Shown here one piece after another: positions 23,807 to 38,371 of a DNA stretch of 50,345 nt; position 1 is the stretch's first letter; each line of letters begins with the position of its first letter. Below the pieces are notes generated by a model. It did not search any database. It saw only the letters and a list, made by a program, of their open reading frames with translations, and was not told the origin of the DNA. The stretch spans positions 1 to 50,345 of the forward strand of contig JAKQIZ010000076.1 of the NCBI GenBank assembly GCA_029561465.1. The letters are read 5' to 3'. The DNA is from Deltaproteobacteria bacterium (lineage in GTDB: Bacteria > Desulfobacterota > Syntrophia > Syntrophales > UBA8958). Both the position numbers and the translations under genes were made by a program.

Positions 23807-25105
23807 TTAAATCGTATCCTGGATGATTTGTGTTAGCGATGGTTTGACGGTCTGCCTTTTCGCCGCTGATTGTTTTCTCCCCGACGCGCGGGCGACCCTC
23901 TTCGCCCTTGGCCTCGGACCGGCTTTGTCTTTCTCATCGGCCTTTCCTGCCGCGACGGCAAGGGCGTCCATGACCGGTTGCGCCGTTGCGGCCGTATCCA
24001 CAGTGTAGGCCGCCGGGAATTTTGCTTCCCCGTCCCGTTCCCGAAGCCACCGGACGATCTTGGGGGCAAATTCCCGCTGGCACTTGGAGCTTACGTAGAT
24101 GCCGATATGTCCCGTGTCCAGGGTAATATCCTCCGTATCGGTGCTGCCGACACATTTGGTAAGCATGCCGCATGCCTCCGGGGGAACGAGATGGTCGTAC
24201 ATTCCATAAAAGTTGAGGAGCGGCATGGTGATGTTCTTCAAATCGACGTGCCGGCCGCCGATTTCGAGCTTATTCTGGATCAGGAGGTTCTTCTTGTAGA
24301 AGTCGGAGGCAAACTGGCGGAAGGTCTCGCCGGGAACATCGGGGCTATCGAAGATCCATTTTTCCATCCGGACGAAGTTTTCCACAAAGGACTTGCTTCC
24401 CATGTTTTCGAAGAAGCCCACATATTTATCGATCATCAACCGGGCCGGATTCAGGAGTAGGAAACCGATGTTCATCACGTCTCCGGGCAGATTGCCGAAG
24501 GCGTTGATCATTTTGTCCGTGTCGATGGCCCGCATCCAGATGTGCAGCAGCCCCTTGTCCGTATCGAAGTTCGTCGGCGTAACGGTGGTGATGAGATTTT
24601 TGATCTTCTCCGGATGGAGGGCGGAGTAAATGACGCAAAACGTGCCGCCCATGCAGATGCCCATGAGATTGATCTTGGGAGCGCCCGTTTCCTCCCGGAT
24701 GAACTCGACGATATTGTCCATGTAGCCGTTGACATGGTCGTCGATGGTGAGAAAACGGTCCTTCCTGGTCGGGTAACCCCAGTCGATCATGTAGAGGTCG
24801 ACGCCGCTGTTGAGGAAGGTCTGGACAACGCTCCGATCCGGCTGGAGATCCAGCATCGTCTCCCGGTTGATGAGGGCGTACGTTACCAGCAGGGGCGTCT
24901 TCATGGTAATCTCCCCGGGGGTGCGGTAGTGCTTCAGCTTGACCCGGTCCTCTTCGTAAACCACATCGTAGGGAGTCATGGCCAAGTTGGATTCCAGTGG
25001 GCCCAGGAGGACCTCCGACGCTTTGGTGACTGTTTCCTGCGCCTTTTCCGCCTCCGAGGCGATATTGGCTAAAATGAGATCCAGGGATATCTTGGGTTGT
25101 TCCAT
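23807..25105 (-). CDS. phaC: Class III PHA synthase catalytic subunit PhaC
   Basis: About 432 residues from ATG 25105, which has an ideal AAGGAGGTGA eight bases upstream. The nucleophile elbow is GICMGG (Cys 151); the other triad members are Asp 304 (YGMYDHLVPPE) and His 333 (DTGHIGIYVS). Other class III marks are ALINRETMLDLQPDRSVVQ and DLYMIDWGYPTRKDRFLTID. It polymerises (R)-3-hydroxyacyl-CoA with the PhaE subunit encoded just upstream. The last 55 residues are a Lys/Arg/Ala-rich tail (KADEKDKAGPRPRAKRVARA and beyond) not usual for class III enzymes, maybe contacting the granule, DNA or PhaE. Confidence 0.96.
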   Translation of the reverse strand: MEQPKISLDLILANIASEAEKAQETVTKASEVLLGPLESNLAMTPYDVVYEEDRVKLKHYRTPGEITMKTPLLVTYALINRETMLDLQPDRSVVQTFLNSGVDLYMIDWGYPTRKDRFLTIDDHVNGYMDNIVEFIREETGAPKINLMGICMGGTFCVIYSALHPEKIKNLITTVTPTNFDTDKGLLHIWMRAIDTDKMINAFGNLPGDVMNIGFLLLNPARLMIDKYVGFFENMGSKSFVENFVRMEKWIFDSPDVPGETFRQFASDFYKKNLLIQNKLEIGGRHVDLKNITMPLLNFYGMYDHLVPPEACGMLTKCVGSTDTEDITLDTGHIGIYVSSKCQREFAPKIVRWLRERDGEAKFPAAYTVDTAATAQPVMDALAVAAGKADEKDKAGPRPRAKRVARASGRKQSAAKRQTVKPSLTQIIQDTI

Positions 25106-25129
25106 TGTCGTCACCTCCTTCAATAGGGG

Positions 25130-26038
25130 TTATTTCTTTTCTTTACTTTTTGCGCCCAGTTCCTTTTCGAGAACCCGCACGCGTTTCTTCAGCAGGTAGA
25201 GATCCTTGTAGATGTTGTCCATATCCCGGTTGGTGGGCACGGGTAGGGACTGGAGGAGATCCTGCAAGACCTCGTTTTTGGCGTTCGCGAAGTTTTCCAC
25301 CTGGTCGAGCATCTCCCGGAAAGCCGCCAGGTATTCCGGGGATTTGAAGAGGTTCATGTAATGCCCTTCGAGGATCTTTACCCAAAGATTGTAATACTCT
25401 TTGGCCTTTTCCGGCACCTTTCCCTCCTTGGATAGCTCTTCCACCTGGTCCTGGAGGACCTGCATGGATTTTTCCATCGGCAGATAGAGGAGGTAGAAGA
25501 ACTCCGACAGGGCGGCCTGGAGGATGTTCGCCTGATCCGCCAGGCGATTCATCCGTTCCTGATAATACCGGGTCAATCCCAATTGCGGGATCTGGAAATA
25601 TTGGCGAAATTCCTCCTCGTATATTTCCCTCCAGAGCTTGAAGACGTCCTGATCCAGGTTCTCGAACTGGTAGGCCTCGGTTTTCTGGCCGATCTTGCCG
25701 GCCTTTTCCATGGCCTGCTTCTGGATCTTCGCCGACGCCTCCCACGACGCCCGGACAATCTTCAGGATGAATTCCGGCATGGTGTTGAGCCCTTTGAGTA
25801 CGGCATCGGCAACTTGCGGATCGTTGAACGTCGTCGAGACGGACTGCATCCTTTTCAGGGCCGCTTCCATTGATTCGGCGTAACGGTTCTTGATTCCCTC
25901 CCCGACTTCGGATACCTTGAAGGCGGGTGCGGCGGTGGGGACGGCCTTGAGCATGGACGTCCAGAAGTCCGTGGAGGCCTTCATCCAGTCCTGCATCACG
26001 GCGTCGAGATTGATCTGGTCCGACTTTTTCTCTTCCAT
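25130..26038 (-). CDS. phaE: Class III PHA synthase subunit PhaE
   Basis: About 302 residues from ATG 26038 (GAGG eight bases upstream; a GTG at 26047 is the alternative). The protein is almost all helical and shows PhaE marks: FWTSMLKAVPTAAPAFKVSE, WREIYEEEFRQYFQIPQLGL, then EFFYLLYLPMEKSMQVLQDQ, and a C-terminal coiled coil (MDNIYKDLYLLKKRVRVLEK). PhaE has no catalytic residues; it forms the active complex with PhaC, encoded 24 bases downstream. First gene of phaE-phaC-GAF-phaJ. A sigma70-type promoter stands about 85 bases upstream. Confidence 0.93.
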   Translation of the reverse strand: MEEKKSDQINLDAVMQDWMKASTDFWTSMLKAVPTAAPAFKVSEVGEGIKNRYAESMEAALKRMQSVSTTFNDPQVADAVLKGLNTMPEFILKIVRASWEASAKIQKQAMEKAGKIGQKTEAYQFENLDQDVFKLWREIYEEEFRQYFQIPQLGLTRYYQERMNRLADQANILQAALSEFFYLLYLPMEKSMQVLQDQVEELSKEGKVPEKAKEYYNLWVKILEGHYMNLFKSPEYLAAFREMLDQVENFANAKNEVLQDLLQSLPVPTNRDMDNIYKDLYLLKKRVRVLEKELGAKSKEKK

Positions 26039-26120
26039 ATTGGACACCTCAAAAAATAAAGAAAGCTGATAAGGCTGTCGCCTGTTAATAATCGGGGGGT
26101 ATGATTGAAAGCTGTACCCT

Positions 26121-30368: not shown

Positions 30369-30899
30369 CTACAGGATTTTTCTCAGTTCCTCCACGAAGA
30401 CCTCGTAAGTTCCCCGGTCAAAGAGAACGAAACGGATCAGCTCGATATCCTCGTGGCTCCGCAGGTATTCCACGGCCGTTTTCAGGGCGATGTGGGCCGC
30501 CTCGCCCAGGGGATAACTGTAAACCCCCGTGCTGATCGCCGGGAAGGCGACGCTTTTCAACTTCCGGGTTGACGCCAGCTTCAGGCTTTCGGCGTAAGCG
30601 CTCCGGAGCAGGTTTGCCTCTCCCCGGCCGCCGCCCCGATAGACCGGCCCCACTGTGTGGATGACATACCTGGCCTTCAATTTGCCGGCCGTGGTAATTA
30701 CGGCCTGACCGGTGGGACAGCCGCCGATCTGCCGGCATTCGTCCATGATGGACGGCCCGCCGGCCCGGTGGATGGCCCCGTCCACGCCGGCGCCCCCGGC
30801 CAGGCGGGAGTTGGCGGCATTGACGATGGCCTCCGTTTCTTCCCGGGTGATGTCCCCCTGGACCAGGGACAGGGTGCCCTTGTTGACCTTCACTTCCAT
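30369..30899 (-). CDS. Macro-domain hydrolase (O-acetyl-ADP-ribose deacetylase-like)
   Basis: About 176 residues from ATG 30899, eight bases after GGGAGG. ADP-ribose binding marks: VQGDITREETEAIVNAANSR, LAGGAGVDGAIHRAGGPSI, then YVIHTVGPVYRGGG and FPAISTGVYSYPLGEAA. These make it a MacroD/YmdB-type protein, which hydrolyses O-acetyl-ADP-ribose or mono-ADP-ribosyl links. The upstream part of the open frame has no family similarity. The first 34 codons together with the ribosome binding site occur again at 38252-38371. Confidence 0.94.
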   Translation of the reverse strand: MEVKVNKGTLSLVQGDITREETEAIVNAANSRLAGGAGVDGAIHRAGGPSIMDECRQIGGCPTGQAVITTAGKLKARYVIHTVGPVYRGGGRGEANLLRSAYAESLKLASTRKLKSVAFPAISTGVYSYPLGEAAHIALKTAVEYLRSHEDIELIRFVLFDRGTYEVFVEELRKIL

Positions 30900-30917
30900 A
30901 ACGATTACCTCCCGGCC
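30798..30917. repeat. Parent copy of the 120-bp duplication
   Basis: The 5' end of the macro-domain gene plus its ribosome binding site matches 38252-38371 in 118 of 120 positions, in the same orientation, at an offset of 7454 bases. The two differences I see are at 30802 and 30906. Confidence 0.95.
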
Positions 30918-31083
30918 ATAGAGATCTTTACCGCCAATGGAAAACCTGTCCGCTGGCGGAAAAATAATTTTTCCAGATATCCCTTTATTGTATGAGGGAT
31001 TGATAAGAAATCTAACCCGCTGTGCCGCCGGATGCAAGAAAAAAACGCCGGAAAAACAATATAACCCTTAGGTGCTGCCGGTA

Positions 31084-32862: not shown

Positions 32863-33261
32863 TTAATAATTTCTCTTCAAGGCCTCAACGCTGGCGATTA
32901 TTTTCTGCAAAGACGATCCCGGACCGAACACCGCGGCGATCCCCGCTTTTTTCAAAATCGGCACATCGTCCGGCGGCACGGTGCCGCCGAATATCACCTT
33001 GATGTCCTGCGCCTTTTCTTTTTTCAGCAGTTTCACGACTTCCGGCGCCAACATCAGGTGGTTGCCGGAAAGGGAACTCAGCCCGATGATGTCCACGTCT
33101 TCCTGCAGCGCCATTTTGACGATGTTGGCGGGCATTTGATTGCCCCCGTAAATCACTTCCATCCCCGCATCGCGCAAGGCCCTGGCCACAACGATACTTC
33201 CCCGCCAGTGGGCATCCATCCCCAGACGGACCATCAATATGCGAATCCTTTGTTTTTTCAT
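32863..33261 (-). CDS. B12-binding small subunit of an acyl-CoA mutase
   Basis: About 132 residues from ATG 33261 (GGGAG seven bases upstream). The cobalamin-binding motif is present: MDAHWRG gives the DxHxxG with the lower-ligand His 18, followed by LSSLSGNH and FGGTVPPDD. It is the free-standing C-terminal domain of methylmalonyl-CoA mutase, as in HcmB or archaeal mutases. The 561-residue catalytic subunit ends 38 bases upstream. The two would form the active enzyme with adenosylcobalamin. Confidence 0.94.
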   Translation of the reverse strand: MKKQRIRILMVRLGMDAHWRGSIVVARALRDAGMEVIYGGNQMPANIVKMALQEDVDIIGLSSLSGNHLMLAPEVVKLLKKEKAQDIKVIFGGTVPPDDVPILKKAGIAAVFGPGSSLQKIIASVEALKRNY

Positions 33262-33299
33262 TATCTCGCTCCCTGATATCATTTTTTTTAAAAAAGTCG

Positions 33300-34985
33300 T
33301 TAAAAAAGAGGCGGCTCCCAGACCCCGTAAACACGTTTCAGCGTCCTGGAAATTTCACCTTCCGTAAGGAAATTTTTGACTTCACCTACCATCAGTTTCA
33401 TCAGATTCTTGTTTCTTTCGCAACAGCCGGCGATGGCATCCAGAGATTTGGCCACGGCCCCGGCATTTCTCGTTTTTTTGATTTTCTTCAGTTTTCTTGT
33501 CTGCACCTTTACGGTTTCCGGTGAAGAGAAAAGCTCGATCGGCAGCACTTCGTCCTCGATCTGGTAGCAGTTCACGCCGACGATCGGCATCGCGCCCGAT
33601 TCCACATCCAACTGATATTTATAGGCGGCGGCCGCGATCTCTCCGTGTATCCAGCCCTTTTCCACGGCCTTCACCAAACCCCCGATCCGATCGATATCGT
33701 CCAGGATCCTGAGCACTTCCGCTTCCATGCTGTTGGTAAGGGATTCCAGATAATATGAACCGCCCAAGGGGTCGATGGTGTTGGTAACTCCCGTTTCGTT
33801 CCGGAGTATTTGCTGGGTGCGCAATGCTGTTACCGATGAGAGTTCCGTGGGCGTGCATAAGGCTTCATCGTAGGCGTCCACATGGACAGACTGGGCGCCG
33901 CCCAGCACGGCGGCAAGGGCATGGTAGGCGGAGCGGGCGATGTTGTTCAGCGGCTGTTGGGCGGTGAGGGCCACGCCGGCAGTCTGCACGTGAAACCGGA
34001 ACATGAGCGAGCGCGGATCCTGGGGGTGATATCTTTTCTTCATGACATGGTAGTAGACCCTGCGGGCGGCCCGGTATTTGGCGATTTCTTCAAAGAAGTC
34101 GTTGTGGGCGGAGAGGAAAAAGCTGAGTCGTTTCGAAAAGTTGTCTATCTTCAGACCCCGGGCGAGCATATCCTCGGCACAGGCCAGCGCGTGAGCGATC
34201 ACGAAAGCGATTTCCTGCGGCGCTGTGCAACCTGCTTCGCGATAATTATATCCGGCAAAACTGATGGGATTCCATTGCGGAGCGTATTTTGTACAGAACT
34301 CGATGGCGTCGCAACTGATTTTGAAAGAAGCTCTGGGGGGCAGCACCCCCGGGGCGATGGTGGTTGCCGTTTCCATCAAAAAATCATTTTGGCTTGTTCC
34401 GGCCAAGTTCGCGAGCGGAATGCCGCGGTCGAGAGCGTTGGCAAAATACATGGATTGCACGGAAATATTGCAGATCGGCTGGCAGGTTACCAGCGAGACG
34501 CTTACCTTGTCGATGGGAATATCATCGAAAAGGGTGCGCATGTCGCCGATCGTATCAATCGCCACCCCGCCCCGGCCGACGTCGGCGTAAACATCGGGAT
34601 CGTCGCTGCTGTAGCCCCGCAGCGTGGGATAATCGAAAACCCCGTTTATCCCGGTGGCGCCCTGCTGGAGCAGGAACTTGTAGCGCTTGTTGGTTTCCTC
34701 GGGCGGACCGAATCCCGCCAGTTGCCGGTGCGTCCAGGTCCGGCCGCGATACATCGTGGGATGAACTCCCCGGATGAACGGCCCCTTCCCCGGATACCCC
34801 AGGTCGCGGAGATAATCCAGGCCGGCCACGTCATCCGGCGTGTAAAGAGGCTTTACCTTGAATCCGGATAATGTTTCATACTTGTCTTTCAGCCGTTGCT
34901 GGCATGAATACGAGTTCTCCTCCCAATCCGCGGTTTCCCTGGCGACCTCTTTAATCCTGTTTTGATTAAAAATGCCCGTTTTCAC
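33300..34985 (-). CDS. Acyl-CoA mutase large subunit (MCM superfamily, unknown specificity)
   Basis: 561 residues starting with GTG 34985, seven bases after GGAGG. It matches the catalytic subunit of the methylmalonyl-CoA mutase superfamily over its length (TMYRGRTWTHRQLAGFG, GVAIDTIGDMRTLFDDIPID, RLSFFLSAHNDFFEEIAKYR, NTIDPLGGSYYLE), and its size and separate B12 subunit match 2-hydroxyisobutyryl-CoA mutase HcmA. Aligned with Propionibacterium MCM, Tyr89 is Leu89, Arg207 is Thr209 and His244 is Asn247. The HcmA Ile90/Asp117 pair is Leu89/Val116. So a carboxylated substrate is unlikely and HCM activity is not supported; I leave the substrate open. No MeaB chaperone gene is near. A sigma54-type promoter lies just upstream. 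Confidence 0.95.
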   Translation of the reverse strand: MKTGIFNQNRIKEVARETADWEENSYSCQQRLKDKYETLSGFKVKPLYTPDDVAGLDYLRDLGYPGKGPFIRGVHPTMYRGRTWTHRQLAGFGPPEETNKRYKFLLQQGATGINGVFDYPTLRGYSSDDPDVYADVGRGGVAIDTIGDMRTLFDDIPIDKVSVSLVTCQPICNISVQSMYFANALDRGIPLANLAGTSQNDFLMETATTIAPGVLPPRASFKISCDAIEFCTKYAPQWNPISFAGYNYREAGCTAPQEIAFVIAHALACAEDMLARGLKIDNFSKRLSFFLSAHNDFFEEIAKYRAARRVYYHVMKKRYHPQDPRSLMFRFHVQTAGVALTAQQPLNNIARSAYHALAAVLGGAQSVHVDAYDEALCTPTELSSVTALRTQQILRNETGVTNTIDPLGGSYYLESLTNSMEAEVLRILDDIDRIGGLVKAVEKGWIHGEIAAAAYKYQLDVESGAMPIVGVNCYQIEDEVLPIELFSSPETVKVQTRKLKKIKKTRNAGAVAKSLDAIAGCCERNKNLMKLMVGEVKNFLTEGEISRTLKRVYGVWEPPLF

Positions 34986-35021: not shown

Positions 35022-35037
35022 TGCACATAATATGCCA
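35022..35037 (-). promoter_or_regulatory. Sigma54 (-24/-12) promoter candidate of the mutase genes
   Basis: The minus strand reads TGGCATATTATGTGCA, with GG and GC ten bases apart, as required for sigma54 (consensus TGGCACG-N4-TTGCA). The mutase GTG is about 36 bases downstream and a sigma54 activator gene is the upstream neighbour. Mismatches are C to T at the sixth position, G to A at the seventh and T to G in TTGC. Confidence 0.6.
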
Positions 35038-35177: not shown

Positions 35178-35192
35178 GTGAAATTATTTCAC
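35178..35192. promoter_or_regulatory. Palindrome at the 3' end of the regulator gene
   Basis: GTGAAATTATTTCAC is a perfect 7-bp inverted repeat around one T, overlapping the stop of the NtrC-type gene and about 140 bases upstream of the -24/-12 site. It may be an upstream activator site or a weak hairpin. Confidence 0.45.
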
Positions 35193-36574
35193 TTGTCCGG
35201 CAGCCGGTGCTTATTCATTAGATACCGCAGTGAAAAACGATCCAAACGCAGCAGTTTTGCCGCTTCCGTCTTGTTCCCTCCGGTCTTGAGCAGCGCCTGC
35301 TTGATCAGTTTGCTCTGTAATGCCGACGTGAGTTCCTTGATGTCCAATCCGGAATCCGGCAGGTTAATTTCCGCTGCTCCGGTTACGGGGTCTGCATAGC
35401 TCTCATCGGTGATTTCCCGCGGCAAGTGCTTGAGCAAAATAATCTCGGGATTGTCGATGATCATGATCCGCTCCATCGTGTTCCTTAGCTCCCGGACGTT
35501 TCCGGGCCAGGAATAATTCAACATGGCGGTGATTGCGTCTTCGCTTATGCCCTTCACATTCTTTCTGTAGTCGTTATTGAGGAGATCAAGGAAATATCTC
35601 GCGGTCGGAACGATATCCTCCTTTCGCTCCCGTAGCGGCGGGATAAAAATTGTCAGGACGTTTAAGCGGTAATACAGGTCCTCGCGGAATTTATTCTGGC
35701 GGATTCGCTCCTTGAGATTGTGGTTGGTCGCGGCAATTATTCGGGTGTTTACCTGAATCGTCCGCTGCCCACCCAGGCGGCGAAACCTCTTTTCCTGCAG
35801 AACGCTTAACAGTTTCGACTGTATGATCAGGTCCATATCGCCGATTTCATCGAGAAACAGTGTTCCTCCGGAGGATTGTTCAAAAAGGCCTTTCCTGGCA
35901 CGCTTGGCATCGGTAAACGCCCCCTGCTCATAACCGAACAACTCACTTTCCAGGAGGGAATACGGGATAGCCGAGCAGTTGATCTCGATGTATGGCCCGT
36001 TCAGCCTGGGGCTGCCGTAATGAATCGCTTTTGCCACCAGTTCTTTGCCGGTTCCGCTTTCACCATGGATCAGTACTGTTGACGATCCTATTTGCGAGAC
36101 CTTCGCGATCGTCTCCTGGATGTCCTGCATGGCCCGGCTCTGACCGATGATCCTATCCGGTTTGAACAGCGATCTGTTCCTGTCTCTGAGTTCGTTAACT
36201 TCCGTCTGCAGCTTTTGGGTTTCCAGTGCCAGCTTTATTATGGTGGAGATGTGCCTGGATTTGAACGGCTTGTTTATGTAATCAAAAGCACCGAGCTTCA
36301 TTGCGGCCACGGCGTTTTCGATGGACCCGTAGCCGGTCATCATTATTACGGTGCATTCTGGGTTTAAGGCCTTGATCTGCTTCAGAACGTCTATGCCGTT
36401 GCTGTCCGGCAGTTTGAGATCCAGCAGGACAAGATCGACACTTCTTTTTTTCAGGACGGCAATGCCCTGTTTGCCGTTTTCGGCGGACAGGACATCATAA
36501 CCTTCGTCGCTCAATGTCAGTTTCAGGGAATCTCTAATGAGCTTCTGGTCGTCTATGATCAGGATGGTATTCAT
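35189..36574 (-). CDS. NtrC-family sigma54 response regulator
   Basis: 461 residues in three parts. Receiver 1-120 with phospho-acceptor Asp52 (LVLLDLKLPDSNG) and Lys102. AAA+ domain about 140-370 with Walker A GESGTGKE (171-178), Walker B GGTLFLDEIGD (236-246), and the sigma54 contact loop GAFTDA (218-223), a Gly-to-Asp variant of GAFTGA. C-terminal Fis-type HTH in LIKQALLKTGGNKTEAAKLL. It lies 12 bases after the kinase gene and is transcribed toward the mutase. The likely target is the -24/-12 site at 35022. Confidence 0.95.
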   Translation of the reverse strand: MNTILIIDDQKLIRDSLKLTLSDEGYDVLSAENGKQGIAVLKKRSVDLVLLDLKLPDSNGIDVLKQIKALNPECTVIMMTGYGSIENAVAAMKLGAFDYINKPFKSRHISTIIKLALETQKLQTEVNELRDRNRSLFKPDRIIGQSRAMQDIQETIAKVSQIGSSTVLIHGESGTGKELVAKAIHYGSPRLNGPYIEINCSAIPYSLLESELFGYEQGAFTDAKRARKGLFEQSSGGTLFLDEIGDMDLIIQSKLLSVLQEKRFRRLGGQRTIQVNTRIIAATNHNLKERIRQNKFREDLYYRLNVLTIFIPPLRERKEDIVPTARYFLDLLNNDYRKNVKGISEDAITAMLNYSWPGNVRELRNTMERIMIIDNPEIILLKHLPREITDESYADPVTGAAEINLPDSGLDIKELTSALQSKLIKQALLKTGGNKTEAAKLLRLDRFSLRYLMNKHRLPDK

Positions 36575-36586
36575 ATTCCGCCCCGC

Positions 36587-38206
36587 TTATGCATCCAGGT
36601 ATTCAACAGCTTTTCTGCAGTCACAGGGCAGGATTATCGTAAATTCCGTCCCTTTGCCAAGTTCTGAATCGACCTTCACAATCCCGCTATGCTCCTTGAT
36701 TATGCTGTGCGTTATGGACAGCCCCAGCCCCGTTCCTTCATTGTTTGTCGTGAAGAATGGATCGAAGATACGGCCGATATTTTCCGTTGCGATACCCACG
36801 CCGGTGTCGCCGATGGTTATCTCGATGCGTCTCTCCGGGTCGCCGGAGCCGGAATCGCCGGTTAGTTCGGCGGCCTTTATGGTGAGATTTCCACCTGACG
36901 GCATGGCCTTTATCGCATTGATGACAATATTCAGTAATCCTTGTCTGATCCGCTCCTGATCCACGTACAGGCCGTCTATGTCATCGTCAATTCTGATGAA
37001 CATTTTTATGCCGCGGTGATTGCACTGCTCGTTTATGAGCAGATAGATACTGTTGATAATATTCCTGATGTCGGCAAGTTCGAAGTTGAACTTTTTAGGA
37101 CGGGCGAAGGTGAGCAGATCGGAAATCAGTTTTTCCAGCCGCTCTATTTCCCCATTTGCCTCATTGATAAGTTCAAGGTCCCTCCGGGGCAGTTTCTTGC
37201 GGCTCAAGAAATCCAGCACCACGCCGATCCCGGTCAAGGGGTTGCGAATCTCATGCGCTATGCCGGCGGCAAGCTCGCCTAATGATATGAGGCGGTTTAC
37301 CCGCTGCAGGTACTCGTCGCGTTTCCTTTCCCCGGTGATGTCCTGGATGAGAAACATGAAGCCGATAAGGCTTTCCCCTTCGTTCATGATATGGGAAGTG
37401 GTGACATTTAAAATCTTGTCATCCGGATTCAGGGTGAATTCCATCCCTTTCATGTTGTGCAGATGAAAGACAGCTTTCCTTGTGCATTCAATCCATTCCG
37501 GCAGGGGGAAAATCTCCCAGATAAATCTGTTGATTAAAGTATCCTTCATCATGCCGAACATTTTTTCCACAGCGGGGTTCAGGGAGGTTATCCTTCCCGT
37601 AATATCTACCGTCAGAATGCCGTTGATCGAGCTGTTTAAAACATTTTCCGAGAATTTTTTCTCGTTCATCAAATCCTGCAACAGTTTCGAATTTTCGATG
37701 ATGATGCTCGCATAATTGGCTAAAATGGATAGTGACTCGAATTCTTTCTCGTTTATTTCCGGCTCCCCGTGTTTCTTATCGACGCCCAGAATGCCGATGA
37801 TGTCCCCTTTGATCTTGAGAGGCACATACAATGTGCATCCGCGACCCATCCGGGTGGTGACCCTGCGGTCGAGATCCGTCAAATTGTCTGATGAACTGAA
37901 ATTCTTCACTAATACCGGTTCGCCGGTGACGGCTACTCTTGTTTCTATGCAATCGTGCTTCTTAATGTCGAAAGGTCTTTCCTTTACGTAGTTCTCGGTT
38001 TCCGGGGAAAAGCCGGTAATGTACTTGCATTCAAGCTTGTGGTTCGTCTTGTTTAAAAGATAGACTGAACATCTGTTGAAGTTGAGGTCCTGTGTCACCG
38101 TCTGCACTATCGCTTCGACGACCCTATCCATTGTCGCCGGCTCGGTCAGCAGCGAACTTATTCTGTATACATGGGATAAGATCTGGTCGGTGAATTCGTA
38201 ACTCAT
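36587..38206 (-). CDS. Soluble GAF-PAS sensor histidine kinase
   Basis: 539 residues without a membrane segment. An N-terminal GAF domain (about 20-172: ATMDRVVEAIVQTVTQDLNF, CTLYVPLKIKGDIIGILGVD), a PAS domain (about 183-295: VLNSSINGILTVDITGRITS), HisKA with His318 (GELAAGIAHEIRNPLTGIGV) and HATPase (NIVINAIKAMPSGG, GDTGVGI, GTGLGLSITHSII). As partner of the NtrC-type regulator 12 bases downstream it would sense a cytoplasmic signal, possibly an acyl-CoA or redox cue for the mutase. The start at 38206 has no strong ribosome binding site. Confidence 0.94.
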   Translation of the reverse strand: MSYEFTDQILSHVYRISSLLTEPATMDRVVEAIVQTVTQDLNFNRCSVYLLNKTNHKLECKYITGFSPETENYVKERPFDIKKHDCIETRVAVTGEPVLVKNFSSSDNLTDLDRRVTTRMGRGCTLYVPLKIKGDIIGILGVDKKHGEPEINEKEFESLSILANYASIIIENSKLLQDLMNEKKFSENVLNSSINGILTVDITGRITSLNPAVEKMFGMMKDTLINRFIWEIFPLPEWIECTRKAVFHLHNMKGMEFTLNPDDKILNVTTSHIMNEGESLIGFMFLIQDITGERKRDEYLQRVNRLISLGELAAGIAHEIRNPLTGIGVVLDFLSRKKLPRRDLELINEANGEIERLEKLISDLLTFARPKKFNFELADIRNIINSIYLLINEQCNHRGIKMFIRIDDDIDGLYVDQERIRQGLLNIVINAIKAMPSGGNLTIKAAELTGDSGSGDPERRIEITIGDTGVGIATENIGRIFDPFFTTNNEGTGLGLSITHSIIKEHSGIVKVDSELGKGTEFTIILPCDCRKAVEYLDA

Positions 38207-38242: not shown

Positions 38243-38353
38243 TTAATTCGTGGCCGGGCGGGAGTTGGCGGCATTGACGATGGCCTCCGTTTCTTCCCGG
38301 GTGATGTCCCCCTGGACCAGGGACAGGGTGCCCTTGTTGACCTTCACTTCCAT
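38243..38353 (-). pseudogene. Truncated copy of the macro-domain gene start
   Basis: This copy keeps the ATG (38353), the GGGAGG upstream and codons 1-33 of the macro-domain gene, then diverges after NAANSR and meets TAA at 38243, giving a 36-codon frame (MEVKVNKGTLSLVQGDITRE at its start). It stops 37 bases before the histidine kinase start on the same strand. The rest of the macro gene is absent. A 36-residue peptide without the binding site cannot be an active macro domain. Confidence 0.85.
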
Positions 38354-38371
38354 AACGATCACCTCCCGGCC
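38252..38371. repeat. Second copy of the 120-bp duplication
   Basis: Direct repeat of 30798-30917 with about two substitutions in 120 bases. The near identity means either a recent event or continued gene conversion. No terminal repeats or target-site duplications are visible around it. The rest of the 329-base gap (38207-38535) shows nothing I can assign. Confidence 0.95.

Follow-up and report, generated by a model that had tools for sequence, protein, structure and literature searches.

In the methylmalonyl-CoA mutase superfamily, the enzyme generates a 5′-deoxyadenosyl radical, to which a methyl group of the CoA thioester loses a hydrogen; the CO-SCoA group then moves to that carbon. In methylmalonyl-CoA mutase (MCM) proper, roles are attributed to Tyr89, Arg207 and His244, the last being regarded as important for radical protection, and to Gln197, Tyr243, His328, Gln330 and Glu370. 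Isobutyryl-CoA mutases carry Phe, Gln and His at positions 89, 207 and 244. HcmAB of Aquincola tertiaricarbonis (4r3u) has split subunits, with Ile90 and Asp117 as its characteristic pair. The RcmAB type (Kyrpidia tusciae, Bacillus massiliosenegalensis and the RcmAB-like enzyme of Desulfococcus biacutus) is likewise split and possesses Leu or Ile at position 89 and no Arg207; the abstract of Weichler 2015 reportedly identifies the exchange of Asp117 for Val as what chiefly sets the Kyrpidia RcmA enzyme apart.

As described in the accessible parts of the source, the published gene set consists of GntR, meaH, rcmAB or hcmAB, and hcl; the product of RcmAB is preferentially (R)-3-hydroxybutyryl-CoA, and the acetone mutase of D. 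biacutus is RcmAB-like (PMC7176365).

Mutase gene pair and its surroundings

The window, a stretch of 50,345 nucleotides from a Syntrophales genome (contig C116 of assembly G000; 2.62 Mb, 194 contigs, 92% complete), encodes a split mutase on its reverse strand. The large, substrate-binding subunit of this AdoCbl-dependent acyl-CoA mutase (33300–34985, reverse strand) is an intact open reading frame of 561 aa with a GTG start, preceded by the ribosome-site-like AAAGGAGGG. The small B12-binding subunit (32863–33282, reverse strand; 139 aa, PF02310) lies 17 nt behind it and contains DAHWRG, which we take to be the DxHxxG motif. The pair belongs to the PF01642 superfamily: the large subunit scores 586 bits over profile positions 2–512 of 512 and is accompanied by the B12-binding partner.

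Apart from this complete gene, a PF01642 search of the G000 assembly yielded just two N-terminal fragments, each truncated by the end of its contig (C155:23166-23417 and C121:4-255; L002 and L003) and 95% identical to the other over 82 aa. They are perhaps near-identical copies that broke the assembly. An M24 gene (C121:365-1537) adjoins one of them. The plasmid collection contained no match at 60% identity or above.

Upstream of the mutase, and on the same strand, lie genes for an AtoC-like sigma-54-dependent response regulator (35189–36574), also found beside the mutase in genomes G003 (L114) and G049 (L116), and for its partner, an AtoS-like GAF-PAS sensor histidine kinase (36587–38206). 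Between regulator and mutase, 36 nt before the start codon, we located a site resembling the −24/−12 consensus of sigma-54 promoters, TGGCATATTATGTGCA (35022–35037, reverse strand). The pattern TGGCAT-N5-GTGCA, drawn from the window, L114 and L116 sites, lies between regulator and mutase at all three loci and has its sole exact match in the window here, with 0.02 expected; the element fits a putative sigma-54 promoter. A near-perfect palindrome noticed by eye, GTGAAATAATTTCAC (35178–35192, reverse strand), has a similar counterpart in L114, GTGAAATATTTCCAC, and may serve the response regulator as an upstream activator site.

Two further features of the window were recorded. A 120-nt direct repeat with 98% identity occurs at 30798–30917, inside the 5′ part of a macro-domain gene (30369–31037, reverse strand), and at 38252–38371, as a truncated second copy between the histidine kinase and a LysR gene. 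About 7 kb from the mutase, PhaC-like and PhaE genes, the former scoring 34 bits with PhaC_N and the latter of the class III PHA synthase kind, lie at 23807–25123 and 25130–26047, both on the reverse strand. PHA synthases use (R)-3-hydroxyacyl-CoA, which an RcmAB-type mutase is expected to produce, and the PhaC-like/PhaE pair is a possible sink for it.

Pocket residues

The large subunit was aligned to 1req, 2xij and 4r3u with HMMER, and with MAFFT as a second aligner. Both place Leu89 (codon 34719–34721, reverse strand) at MCM Tyr89 and HcmA Ile90 (RQYAGF/RQLAGF), Asn247 (34245–34247) at His244 (GYHMQEAG/GYNYREAG), and Val116 (34638–34640) at HcmA Asp117, which is Ala116 in MCM. For the position of Arg207, HMMER gives Thr209 and MAFFT gives Ile210 (codons 34356–34361); Arg stands there in neither alignment, and the two disagree because the window has one extra residue at this place. 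The original prediction, made from the DNA alone, that all three MCM signature residues are replaced and that the HcmA pair Ile90/Asp117 reads Leu/Val is thus borne out. Its supporting argument, that the residue counts fit an MCM spacing of 118 between positions 89 and 207, fails: Leu89 to Thr209 spans 120 residues and Leu89 to Asn247 spans 158, compared with 118 and 155 in MCM. The longer spacings result from a two-residue insertion in the loop VTCQPICN, which comes in addition to the single inserted residue beside position 207.

Compared with MCM (1req, human MMUT), whose B12 domain is fused, the window enzyme retains the fold, the AdoCbl chemistry and Gln197, Tyr243, His328, Gln330 and Glu370, while Gln110 is replaced by Ala and Asn366 by Asp. 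Isobutyryl-CoA mutase of the Phe/Gln/His type (IcmF) has a similar fold and an expected monocarboxylic substrate; however, the window shows Leu instead of Phe89 and Thr or Ile instead of Gln207, and also lacks the His at 244. HcmAB is the closest solved structure by both sequence and fold and is split in the same manner, but its identity to the window is 41.5%, and its Ile90, Asp117 and His244 equivalents are Leu, Val and Asn in the window. Val at HcmA position 117 is presumably an RcmA trait, and the window shares it as Val116. Although the HcmA pair is absent, a hydroxyisobutyryl-CoA mutase therefore remains a possible assignment, with the RcmA kind indicated.

An AlphaFold model built from 37 sequences (mean pLDDT 83, pTM 0.86) matched HCM 4r3u best in the PDB (TM 0.87), followed by the human and Propionibacterium MCMs. 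Loops 81–88, 339–342 and 373–379 have pLDDT below 50, and the placement of Arg207 is based on the sequence alignment, not on model coordinates.

A clade of mutases with Asn244

Relatives were collected from 60 genomes near G000, 50 of which contain some mutase; from a genome-collection scan with 591 confirmed places, represented by their best 80; and with a signature pattern drawn from Asn244 (N244) sequences, which matched 13 of 395 genomes of the phylum, compared with one genome for the reversed-pattern control, and 7 of 398 genomes from the phylum to which the Clostridiales genome G448 belongs. Dereplication left 136 large subunits, aligned with MAFFT. Position 244 is His in 87, Asn in 44, Gln in two and Asp in two, with one gap. 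Arg207 is absent from all 44 N244 rows (Ile 15, Ser 14, Thr 10, Val 4, His 1); position 89 is Leu in 40 and Ile in three (one gap), and the HcmA 117 position is Val in 34 and Asp in none. The co-occurrence of these letters implies that the set is inherited together. Arg123 of the window is conserved in the MCM references and in each of the 43 N244 rows that are not gapped at this position, and is rare in the remaining rows; a role in binding an anion is conceivable.

A tree was calculated from 86 rows, comprising the 43 N244 sequences longer than 400 aa and 43 others, with the Phe/Gln/His type thinned to every third row. A branch with SH-aLRT support of 99 separates the N244 rows from all others, the Tyr/Arg/His rows included. 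Within the clade, 14 rows with Leu behind the Asn (YNL) form a group with support 100, and 28 rows with Tyr there (YNY), including the window, are split off by a branch with support of only 69; one Archaeoglobales row (YNI) stands beside the latter. The tree places the window within the N244 clade and the reference HcmA and MCM rows outside it. What the original prediction overlooked is that the replacements are a family trait of a known kind. A small subunit occurs within 8 kb at 42 of the 43 N244 loci examined.

The RcmA group probably lies in the same clade as the window, but in its other half. The likeness to the RcmAB type in Asn244 is seen through the YNL half, taken to be of the RcmAB kind, as the named proteins themselves are not among the compared rows. 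The window differs from this type by its place in the sister YNY half, by the pocket loop VTCQPI (VTHLPS in YNL), by Tyr rather than Leu behind the Asn and by only 49% identity to the YNL enzyme of locus L049. Open-access papers on His244, Arg207 and Tyr89 contained nothing on the N244 clade, and no biochemistry of any YNY member was found in the open-access literature, outside of which the main Rcm papers lie.

Other departures from the MCM pocket were noted. Loci L037 (2670-16018) and L136 (3047-9956) contain four and three clustered mutase large subunits, respectively, mostly with their own small subunit, plus MeaB; one mutase type in these clusters has Asp244, Val89 and Gly207. Two actinomycetotal loci (L067 and L095) encode mutases with Gln244, Phe89 and Ala207. 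In the same order as the window, two genomes of about 2 Mb (G020 and G036) gave 13 and 15 mutase matches, a large variety of acyl-CoA mutases.

Gene neighborhoods of the two halves

The YNL half is tied to 2-hydroxyisobutyryl-CoA by its ligase operons, by a ThDP enzyme in 4 of 13 genomes and by four fitting published residues. The L049 locus of Bacillus aerolatus has the RcmA-type gene set in the order GntR, MeaB, large subunit (mutL), small subunit (mutS) and ligase. The best solved relative of this ligase is 2-hydroxyisobutyryl-CoA synthetase 6hdw (E = 1.6e-149), followed by PaaK (4e-70), and the ligase of L144 matches 6hdw with E = 3e-183.

In G337 (L140), 6.4 kb separate the YNL mutase from the gene of a 684-aa ThDP enzyme. 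In size and type this enzyme agrees with the one described for acetone degradation, a likeness drawn from description, not from sequence; among solved structures it is closest to 2-hydroxyacyl-CoA lyases and oxalyl-CoA decarboxylases (E 2e-29). Among 41 genomes searched, matches above 35% identity were limited to G337, G456 (70%, 11 kb from the YNL mutase), G012 (63%) and G297 (52%), the last two on other contigs than the mutase. The G456 locus (L172) also contains MaoC-like, HMG-CoA-lyase-like, pyruvate:ferredoxin-oxidoreductase-like, activase-like and 2-hydroxyglutaryl-CoA-dehydratase-like genes, a content resembling the acetone-induced clusters of two Desulfotomaculum species, as far as the accessible text describes them (PMC8084838).

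An assayed, engineered 2-hydroxyisobutyryl-CoA mutase of B. massiliosenegalensis has the wild-type residues V92, E102, E137 and P163, according to the accessible parts of the source (PMC11599936). All four fit at one offset in 8 of 136 sequences (8 of 8,840 sequence-offset trials), each of them a YNL row; the remaining 6 of the 14 YNL rows, the window and the HcmA reference each fail to match at least one of the four. Judging by these published letters, the assayed enzyme is very likely a member of the N244 clade.

Loci of the YNY half have other partner genes. In G003, which is of the same genus as the window, L114 comprises a histidine kinase, a sigma-54 regulator, mutL, a GPR1/FUN34/YaaH-family permease, mutS, a CoA-transferase pair and an M24 hydrolase, and the kinase–regulator–mutL arrangement is common to the window and G049 (L116). 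The second G003 copy (L034) lies behind a butyryl-CoA:acetate CoA-transferase-like gene (305 bits, under the model cut-off of 675), an enoyl-CoA hydratase and an M24 gene. G337 also has a 38% relative of the ThDP enzyme at a distance of 15 kb from its YNY mutase, so that a ketone route is conceivable for the YNY half.

In the window itself, tblastn with 23 queries taken from mutase loci matched nothing but the two mutase genes and the kinase–regulator pair, with no CoA-transferase, ligase, MeaB, M24, SDR or ThDP enzyme; the RcmA-type set is therefore incomplete here, with no hcl-type ligase or MeaB (meaH) detected, GntR being outside the queries. The published acetone pathway, whose D. biacutus form includes a ThDP enzyme of roughly 685 aa, is not supported for G000: with the G337 enzyme as stand-in query, the best match in this 92% complete genome was a contig-edge fragment of 49 bits. 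Nine of the 13 YNL genomes likewise lack the enzyme.

To compare neighborhoods, 43 N244 loci were set against 61 loci of other mutases. CoA-transferase (8/43 versus 0/61; p = 0.0006, uncorrected for nine tests, as are all p values here), M24 (7 versus 0), ligase (6 versus 0), TRAP permease (5 versus 0), HgdB-like (3 versus 0) and SDR genes (8 versus 2) were found mainly at N244 loci, although the queries were taken from N244 loci after inspection, each counting its own match. Counts were 13 versus 7 for the sigma-54 regulator, 12 versus 13 for MeaB, 3 versus 1 for AbfD-like genes (p = 0.3) and 5 versus 12 for acyl-CoA dehydrogenase. The loci are not independent, with two per genome for G003, G337, G037, G448 and G568; several contigs are short, gene calls are longest-ORF guesses, and score limits were chosen by us. 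These partner genes suggest uptake and CoA activation of a small free acid.

M24 creatinase/prolidase-like genes stand beside N244 mutases at L034, L114, L136, L137, L143, L171 and L173. Their status as a clade-specific partner is weakened by inspection by eye of the window's order, where M24 relatives share contigs with other mutase types. The acetone cluster of D. arcticum includes an acetone-induced Xaa-Pro aminopeptidase, according to the accessible part of the source (PMC8084838).

Substrate and alternative explanations

A pocket without an Arg/Tyr pair for a free carboxylate implies a monocarboxylic substrate, and we infer for the window enzyme a small hydroxylated or branched monocarboxylic acyl-CoA. 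This agrees with the original proposal of an acyl-CoA lacking a second carboxylate, which is supported, as far as sequence reaches, by the relatives of the 2-hydroxyisobutyryl-CoA type. With moderate confidence, we favor the interpretation that the pair is a heterodimeric AdoCbl acyl-CoA mutase from a sister branch of RcmAB, with 2-hydroxyisobutyryl-CoA or a close 2-hydroxy-2-methyl homologue as the likeliest substrate. After its uptake, the acid would probably receive CoA from a CoA-transferase and be rearranged to the (R)-3-hydroxyacyl-CoA, which would enter β-oxidation, probably under control of the AtoSC-like sigma-54 two-component system; Asn247 would then form the hydrogen bond to the thioester carbonyl for which His244 is responsible in MCM. 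Against this interpretation stand the position of the window in the YNY half, with its branch support of 69 and its different pocket loop, and the acyl-CoA dehydrogenases at some YNY loci (L036, L037, L041, L042 and L171), which would be needless for a 3-hydroxyacyl product.

It is possible, if somewhat doubtful, that the YNY half is a separate mutase subfamily of Desulfobacterota and Bacillota, often beside M24 genes, in which Asn does the work of His244 on a natural substrate new for B12 mutases; this could be, for example, the 3-hydroxyisobutyryl-CoA/4-hydroxybutyryl-CoA couple or another short hydroxy or branched acid. We consider it unlikely that the YNY enzymes rearrange a non-hydroxylated branched acyl-CoA (isobutyryl-, 2-methylbutyryl- or pivalyl-CoA) to feed butyryl-type β-oxidation in syntrophic and sulfate-reducing bacteria. 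L171 would suit such a role, with its short-chain fatty acid transporter (PF02667), thiolase, enoyl-CoA hydratase, acyl-CoA dehydrogenase and 3-hydroxyacyl-CoA dehydrogenase, as would the transferase-like and hydratase genes of L034 and the acyl-CoA dehydrogenases at 5 of 43 N244 loci. However, these dehydrogenases are equally common in the controls, Phe/Gln/His, as in isobutyryl-CoA mutases, is the common mutase type (73 of 136 rows, and 19 of 21 other mutase loci fetched from the window's order, L013–L033), and Asn244, mostly with Val116 too, is common to the 2-hydroxyisobutyryl half.

Conversion of valine- or thymine-derived 3-hydroxyisobutyrate, as its CoA ester, to 4-hydroxybutyryl-CoA and onward through 4-hydroxybutyryl-CoA dehydratase to crotonyl-CoA appears distinctly improbable. 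A close relative of this dehydratase (1u8v, E = 7e-154) is encoded 2.2 kb from the YNY mutase of L041 (1497-3209, reverse strand), where an acyl-CoA dehydrogenase and an SDR are also neighbors, and more distant family members lie directly behind the ligase in L144 and L145. That ligase, however, is a hydroxyisobutyrate ligase, and the AbfD-like counts above show no enrichment. Lactyl-CoA to 3-hydroxypropionyl-CoA as the natural activity is very improbable: the YNL mutase of L052 has an L-lactate permease gene nearby, but an SDR and a thiolase directly behind the L169 mutase fit a C4 product. In the accessible parts of the report, the B. massiliosenegalensis enzyme has a lactyl-CoA side activity, which is slow (kcat about 0.03 per s) and termed new-to-nature (PMC11599936). 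That the window encodes an ordinary MCM with a rebuilt pocket, the default annotation, is scarcely credible. The Pfam/NCBIfam label for the pair is methylmalonyl-CoA mutase domains, and TIGR00641 and PF01642 match well over their cut-offs; in contrast, the MCM equivalog model NF006944 gives 513.7 of 876 bits, a score also depressed by the split gene, all three residues are gone and the clade lies apart. For the last two reasons we rejected MCM; methylmalonyl-CoA is very unlikely as a substrate, and the annotation, as originally argued, is very probably wrong.

Implications

The combination of Asn in GYNxRE, no Arg207 and QNDFx[ML]ET separates one whole clade from other mutases and points to short hydroxy or branched acids and ketones as what the clade uses, mostly in anaerobes. 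The label "methylmalonyl-CoA mutase" in these genomes conceals enzymes with other substrates. The N244 clade is also a natural experiment on His244, being a clade without this residue in which at least one probable member has been assayed as active. For the bacterium carrying the window, our favored interpretation means that the enzyme probably allows an anaerobe to use a small branched hydroxy acid, not methylmalonyl-CoA.
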